Shown one piece after another: positions 45,362-46,006 of a stretch of DNA of 64,000 nucleotides. A program made the translations under genes and the position numbers. Positions within the stretch are counted from its first letter, which is position 1, and each line of letters opens with the position of its first letter. Below the pieces are notes generated by a model that saw nothing but the letters and a program-made list of their open reading frames with translations, was not told the origin of the DNA and ran no database searches. Source of the stretch: an uncultured beta proteobacterium (GTDB taxonomy: Bacteria > Pseudomonadota > Gammaproteobacteria > Burkholderiales > SG8-41); NCBI GenBank assembly GCA_902825845.1, contig CADECM010000012.1, positions 1-64,000 of the forward strand, read 5' to 3'.

Positions 45362-46006
45362 ATGCGCATGTCCCAACGTATACGCGGCATCACCGACACG
45401 GAAGCCACCGGGCCCACCAAAGATCTGTTCGATGCCAGCAATATTATGCTGGGCCGCACCGCCAATTTGCAGCGTATTTTGTCACACAGTCCAATGCTGG
45501 CACGCTGGTTTTTGCCGCTGGTGGCTGCGGTGCGCCAGCCCACTGCAGGCGCGGTATCCGACGTGCGCCTGCGCAACCTGTCGTGCCTGAAAACATCCAC
45601 CGTAAACAACTGCAACTACTGAACGCAGCATAATCGGGTGCTTGGTCAAGCACTGGGACTCACCGACGCGGAATTCGACGCGTTGCAATCTCCGGATTAT
45701 CTGTCCAGTCCGTTGTTCACTGACAAGGAAAAGTCGGTTATGGCGTGGTCGGAGGCCATGACGCTCAACACGGCCAAGCACGACGACAGCGTATGGAATG
45801 ATTTGCGCAAACATTGCAGCGACGCGGAAATCGTTGAAGTGTCGATGATGTGCGGCCTGTTCAACATGATCAACCGTCTTAACGACTCCTTCCGCACCGA
45901 GCTCGAATCGGAGGAATACAACAAGCGCCAGCACGGCGCGGTGGGCGTCACCGCAAAAGCGCTTGAAGACTACGCCTGCCGCATCTGTCAGCAGCGAAAT
46001 CCGTAG
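45362..46006 (+). CDS. AhpD-like/carboxymuconolactone decarboxylase family selenoprotein (in-frame TGA as Sec87)
   Basis: One reading frame of 215 codons interrupted by a single TGA at 45620-45622. Up to it: LRNLSCLKTSTVNNCNY; after it, without frameshift: TQHNRVLGQALGLT and a full CMD-type C-terminal half (DAEIVEVSMMCGLFNMINRL). Relatives have CxYCxxH here, so the TGA replaces the second cysteine (C84, Sec87, H90). A SECIS-like hairpin follows. A CxxC/CxxU pair would reduce peroxide or act as a thiol oxidoreductase. Alternative readings: a recent nonsense mutation or sequencing error, or two separate ORFs with the second starting at GTG 45638. selA/B/C/D are not in the window, so genome context must decide. 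Confidence 0.75.
45636..45656 (+). promoter_or_regulatory. SECIS-like hairpin downstream of the in-frame TGA
   Basis: A 6-bp stem GTGCTT/AAGCAC (45638-45643 and 45648-45653) closes a GGTC tetraloop (45644-45647). The loop starts 21 nt after the TGA, in the range that SelB needs. The E. coli fdhF SECIS likewise presents GGUC between two GC pairs about 18 nt after UGA. It also encodes protein here, so its pairing is noteworthy. Confidence 0.65.

Follow-up and report, generated by a model that had tools for sequence, protein, structure and literature searches.

SECIS elements of the E. coli type carry a bulged U, and in the fdhF gene of E. coli K-12 the GGTC loop follows the TGA after 18 nt, in the context GC-A-GGTC-T-GC. 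A model of bacterial SECIS elements calls for an apical loop of 3–9 nt whose first two positions include a G, an upper stem of 4–16 bp, a UGA-to-apical-loop spacing of 16–37 nt and a minimum free energy (MFE) of –7.5 kcal/mol or lower (PMC13188914). Selenoproteins of the AhpD-like 1 (COG2128/YciW) and CMD-like (PF02627) types with a CxxU motif, in which U is selenocysteine (Sec), have been described in marine metagenomes (PMC1088965, PMC2398784, PMC9312934). The bacterial SECIS is a known mechanism and AhpD/CMD-like CxxU a known selenoprotein type; what is new here is the family and the lineage. For Betaproteobacteria, a 2006 survey listed a single selenoprotein family, FdhA (PMC1794560), and our literature search, of partial coverage, found no paper on selenoproteins of the betaproteobacterial lineage considered here.

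The DNA analysed (the window, 64,000 nt from an uncultured betaproteobacterium) contains on its forward strand, at 45362..46006, a predicted AhpD/CMD-like selenoprotein gene that would encode 214 aa, counting TGA codon 87 as Sec, with its start codon at 45362, or at 45368 as aligned in most relatives. The codons TGC AAC TAC TGA (45611..45622, forward strand) would give C-N-Y-U, a CxxC redox motif with Sec in second place, followed by T-Q-H, so that the motif layout is C84-x-x-U87-x-x-H90. A phmmer search of solved structures matched Atu0492 (2gmy, E 3.7e-11), PA0269 (2ijc/7xw1), D. radiodurans AhpD (6k40) and others. Atu0492, PA0269 (2ijc), D. radiodurans AhpD and the debrominase Bmp8 (6ohi) resemble the gene product in both sequence and predicted fold. 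In the printed alignments of 2gmy and 2ijc, U87 falls on a Cys, the second one of CAFC in Atu0492 and of CAYC in PA0269. An AlphaFold model of low confidence (pLDDT 58, shallow alignment), which we count as weak support only, retrieved 2gmy and AhpD by fold in Foldseek (E 2e-5). The features that define the AhpD/CMD superfamily, an all-helical AhpD fold, CxxC(U) and a following His, were found in the sequence together with this low-confidence model.

Curated models matched the gene only below their cut-offs, which places it in the AhpD/CMD superfamily and in no curated family. The best-scoring was NF053654 (GroundWater_YciW, 'YciW-related (seleno)protein'), likewise a selenoprotein family of this superfamily, at 61.7 bits against a cut-off of 310, a score so far under the cut-off that the gene is not a member. 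It was followed by TIGR01926 (peroxidase-related enzyme; 50.4 bits, cut-off 81.8), NF041238 (36.4 bits, cut-off 175) and Pfam CMD (PF02627; 16.5 bits, cut-off 23), and nothing was found at the default Pfam threshold. Like the marine-metagenome AhpD-like 1 and CMD-like selenoproteins, the predicted protein has the AhpD/CMD fold, C-x-x-U with Sec second and a putative SECIS just 3' of it; unlike them, it is betaproteobacterial, scores under the curated cut-offs and has an extra conserved C-terminal tail. This tail, YACxxC (C206 and C209; window positions 45970–46000), is conserved in orthologues and missing from the TGA paralogues, and might supply the Sec site with a second redox pair.

The hairpin downstream of the in-frame TGA

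The in-frame TGA, the predicted selenocysteine codon, lies at 45620–45622 of the forward strand and is retained in all orthologues. After 15 nt there follows, on the same strand and inside the coding region, a predicted bacterial SECIS hairpin at 45638–45653, with 5' arm GTGCTT (45638–45643), loop GGTC (45644–45647) and 3' arm AAGCAC (45648–45653) forming six perfect pairs; a seventh, G-U between 45637 and 45654, is optional. The spacing from TGA to loop is 21 nt, the first loop base being the 22nd after the TGA. Direct reading thus confirmed the TGA, the six pairs, the GGTC loop and the distance proposed in a sequence-only reading of this DNA; the range given there, 45620–45656, spans the TGA plus the element, whereas the element itself is confined to 45638–45653. 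The likeness to fdhF drawn in that reading also held against the E. coli K-12 sequence. Both elements lie in frame 3' of the UGA, with a small GGUC apical loop, flanking GC pairs and a spacing within 16–37 nt. They differ in that the hairpin here reads GC-TT-GGTC-AA-GC at 21 nt and consists of six to seven uninterrupted pairs without a bulged U.

All structural terms of the bacterial SECIS model are present (21 nt spacing, GGTC loop, stem of 6–7 bp). The MFE varied with the boundaries chosen, from –5.4 kcal/mol for the 16-nt core through –7.0 for an 18-nt stem-loop to –10.4 for 41 nt from the UGA, and the model asks for –7.5 or lower. The core alone had a z-score of –2.6, with 4 of 200 shuffles equally good. 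When the TGA plus 38 nt was folded, the SECIS-like hairpin was both the MFE and the centroid structure; the total folding energy of this stretch was ordinary (z –1.0), and z-scores of longer stretches are uninformative. An Rfam scan of the region returned no SECIS family match, and isrG as a chance match only.

GC-rich sequence forms hairpins easily, and this one could in principle be a chance structure beside a genuine Sec codon, with the true SECIS elsewhere downstream. The window has 1,784 TGA triplets, counting both strands; 4% of them are followed at 16–37 nt by some Watson–Crick stem of at least six pairs with a G-bearing loop of 3–9 nt, and 0.56% by such a stem with a 4-nt loop. A GGTC-closed stem of at least six pairs in the same range, on the other hand, follows one of them (0.056%), the TGA at 45620. 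For the peptide VLGQAL at local codon usage, the chance probability was ~0.029 for six pairs, ~0.005 for six pairs with the GGTC loop and ~2e-4 for the exact codons GTG CTT GGT CAA GCA; the earlier idea that a stretch coding for a conserved helix would seldom pair by chance therefore holds only mildly (P ~0.03 for six pairs). The argument from the single sequence is suggestive and not decisive; what decides is the comparison between genomes.

Selection across the TGA and frozen codons among orthologues

A search of 100 genomes, comprising the organism's own and those of relatives, found a TGA orthologue in 37 genomes of the same genus or family, its own included, at 66–90% protein identity. 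The TGA stood at the same codon, that of the second Cys of the motif, in every orthologue read out, and the frame through it is conserved in all intact orthologues. Named betaproteobacterial MAG contigs, which overlap partly with the searched genomes, gave the same TGA pattern; a plasmid search returned only distant relatives with less than 60% identity.

These data bear on the rival view of the TGA as a normal stop or a disabling mutation. A short AhpD fragment would then end at Tyr86, and what follows would be a pseudogene or a separate ORF starting anew at the GTG at 45638 within the hairpin. An ORF of 122 aa that begins with GTG is indeed present after the TGA. The TGA is nevertheless fixed in 37 genomes, and the protein is under strong selection on both sides of it, with a median dN/dS of 0.17 before it and 0.12 after it. 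Conservation of the frame extends to the stretch between TGA and GTG (T-x-H-N), and a restart would separate the catalytic motif from its helix. Termination followed by reinitiation was rejected on the further ground that a Shine-Dalgarno-like tetramer precedes the GTG in just 8 of 49 orthologues, and we regard a stop or restart here as highly improbable.

Among intact orthologues the hairpin 16-mer varied only by a single GCA-to-GCG substitution, which retains a G-U pair, and the TGA-to-GGTC spacing of 21 nt held in all 49 sequences. Across 38 distinct orthologues, four of the 100 conserved degenerate codons were synonymously invariant, and these were the consecutive hairpin codons GTG, CTT, GGT and CAA; random placement of four frozen codons as seen has a probability of 1 in C(100,4), or ~3e-7. 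The fifth hairpin codon, GCA, had one synonymous exception in the same set. The codons just past the hairpin (Gly GGN, Leu) varied freely. Close orthologues can hardly covary within VLGQAL, since each wobble base has as its partner a first or second codon position that is fixed; synonymous freezing is therefore the right test at this distance and the expected signature. It reveals constraint at the RNA level, and since the frozen codons are those of the hairpin and no other frozen block occurs in the gene, a chance hairpin with the true SECIS elsewhere is barely credible, the least probable of the alternatives.

Two orthologues depart from the intact form. One with the TGA (L075; G016 C63:25000-26600) has an in-frame loss of ~62 codons including the SECIS, and may be a natural SECIS deletion, a decaying gene or an assembly error. 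Another (L021/L052, 88% identical) has an in-frame TAG 43 codons past the Sec codon; it may be a pseudogene, or the TAG a sequencing error.

Pairing in TGA paralogues and in Cys homologues

The TGA paralogues (30–39% identity) encode ALGQAS, ALGLAS and SLGQAA in place of the orthologous peptide, yet the pairs are restored, as GCGCTT-GGTC-AAGCGT, GCGCTA-GGTC-TAGCGT and TCGCTT-GGTC-AAGCGG. In an alignment of 26 TGA sequences, with 25 distinct rows, pairing was seen in 96% of cells, and both sides had changed in four of seven pairs (15 cells), mainly between paralogue groups, with compensatory changes U-A to C-G, U-A to A-U, G-C to U-G and G-C to A-U. The covariation score was 0.333 compared to 0.189 for shuffled alignments, none of 500 shuffles reached the observed value and slid registers gave 0.025–0.161, although the kinship of the rows inflates covariation counts. 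The replacements of U-A by A-U at the loop-closing pair and of U-A by C-G are genuine double changes. Further TGA genes can form such hairpins too: a third paralogue group CGCCU-GGUC/GGUU-GGGCG at 17 nt, a distant paralogue group GCUGGAG-GGUCU-CUCCAGC at 19 nt, and TGA genes of two class-level genomes (L108, L111) GAUGCUC-GGUCU-GAGUGUC at 21 nt.

The hairpin is missing from the Cys homologues, which have TGC or TGT at the position of U87: they form on average 1.96 of 6 pairs (n = 24, 21–34% identity), compared to 5.9 on the TGA side. A bacterial SECIS-type hairpin of –5 kcal/mol or lower was found in 27 of 30 TGA paralogues and in 3 of 24 Cys homologues of about the same distance, none of the three with a GGUC loop; the Fisher P of 6e-9 is nominal because the rows are related. 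The hairpin thus goes with TGA and not with Cys codons. A close Cys-codon orthologue, keeping or losing GTGCTTGGTCAAGCAC, or a recent Sec-to-Cys switch was not found in this comparison, and since the Cys homologues are all distant, loss of the hairpin was not seen on an otherwise identical background.

The codons CTT, GGT, CAA and GCA are locally minority codons and could in principle be selected themselves, so that the hairpin would be frozen for another reason (codon speed, or a DNA or RNA regulatory site) and the UGA read by a near-cognate tRNA or under a reassigned code. The paralogues, however, alter both codons and peptide while the pairing and the GGUC loop return, with the spacing shifting from 21 to 17–20 nt, and the Cys homologues do not show this. 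Many orthologues moreover terminate in TGA; because many of the same genes end in it, TGA is not generally reassigned, and code reassignment was rejected. With the full Sec machinery also present, this account has a very slim chance of being right. The reading we favour is that the hairpin at 45638–45653 is very probably the SECIS of an mRNA that encodes a selenoprotein. It would direct the ribosome to insert selenocysteine at UGA codon 87 instead of stopping; SelB binding, the actual insertion of Sec and the enzymatic activity of the peroxidase-like protein are what we infer from these sequence comparisons. The support for Sec decoding that the sequence-only reading had seen in the hairpin is upheld by codon freezing, by covariation, by the absence from Cys homologues and by the Sec machinery. 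Of the two outcomes that it had named as refutations, hairpins retained equally well by Cys-codon homologues and a lack of compensatory changes among TGA homologues, neither was observed.

A covariance model of the hairpin (R1), searched in the organism's own genome, had strong matches only at the gene's own locus and at the paralogue on C56, both of the kind from which R1 was built. The next match (C11, L137) adjoins a retron-like reverse transcriptase and was rejected as a SECIS, being a chance match of the model. This locus (G000 C11, ~61.4 kb) has a reverse transcriptase-like ORF with a YADD motif, preceded by an inverted-repeat stretch, and looks like a retron.

Sec machinery and AhpD/CMD-like genes of the lineage

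The organism's own genome carries a selA-selB-selC cluster on C6. There selB scored 455 bits against a cut-off of 242, the tRNA-Sec just downstream of it scored 77 bits, above the Rfam threshold, and selA, directly upstream of selB, was recognised by reading the ORF and not by profile. The selD gene (420 bits; L128, G000 C64:14863-15789) itself has an in-frame TGA, in a GG-U-GC context. By gene content, SelA, SelB, tRNA-Sec and SelD, the set expected of a Sec-decoding host, are all present. Of the 37 genomes with an orthologue, 35 had a SelB match, the other two (G013 and G029) being draft assemblies without one at the strict cut used; as SelB occurs in 55 of 60 genomes of the family, this co-occurrence is consistent and not discriminating.

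Besides SelD, the genome has at least four AhpD-superfamily TGA genes (on C12, C56, C13 and C4). Those further to the gene studied here lie at C56:33829-35073 (L067), C13:14228-14827 (L077) and C4:90483-90965 (L096) of G000, with the in-frame TGA at the same motif position; one of the three seems to encode two domains, the second of them without the cysteines. In another genome (L065, G052 C6:90800-97000), three superfamily TGA genes and a copy without the motif cysteines lie within ~6 kb, which suggests a tandem expansion.

Standard ORF reading cuts the gene at the TGA, so that annotation can easily overlook the enzyme or break it in two. The gene extends selenoproteins other than formate dehydrogenase into an uncultured betaproteobacterial family. 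We lean towards a lineage-specific radiation of AhpD/CMD-like selenoproteins missing from curated models, with at least four TGA paralogue groups and GGUC-type SECIS registers of 17, 19–20 and 21 nt. Paralogues with differing loops, registers and peptides around a GGUC-type loop are a natural data set on what SelB needs of a SECIS. The radiation, if true, would replace the FdhA-only picture of betaproteobacteria (PMC1794560) and provide a natural series for SelB-SECIS co-evolution.
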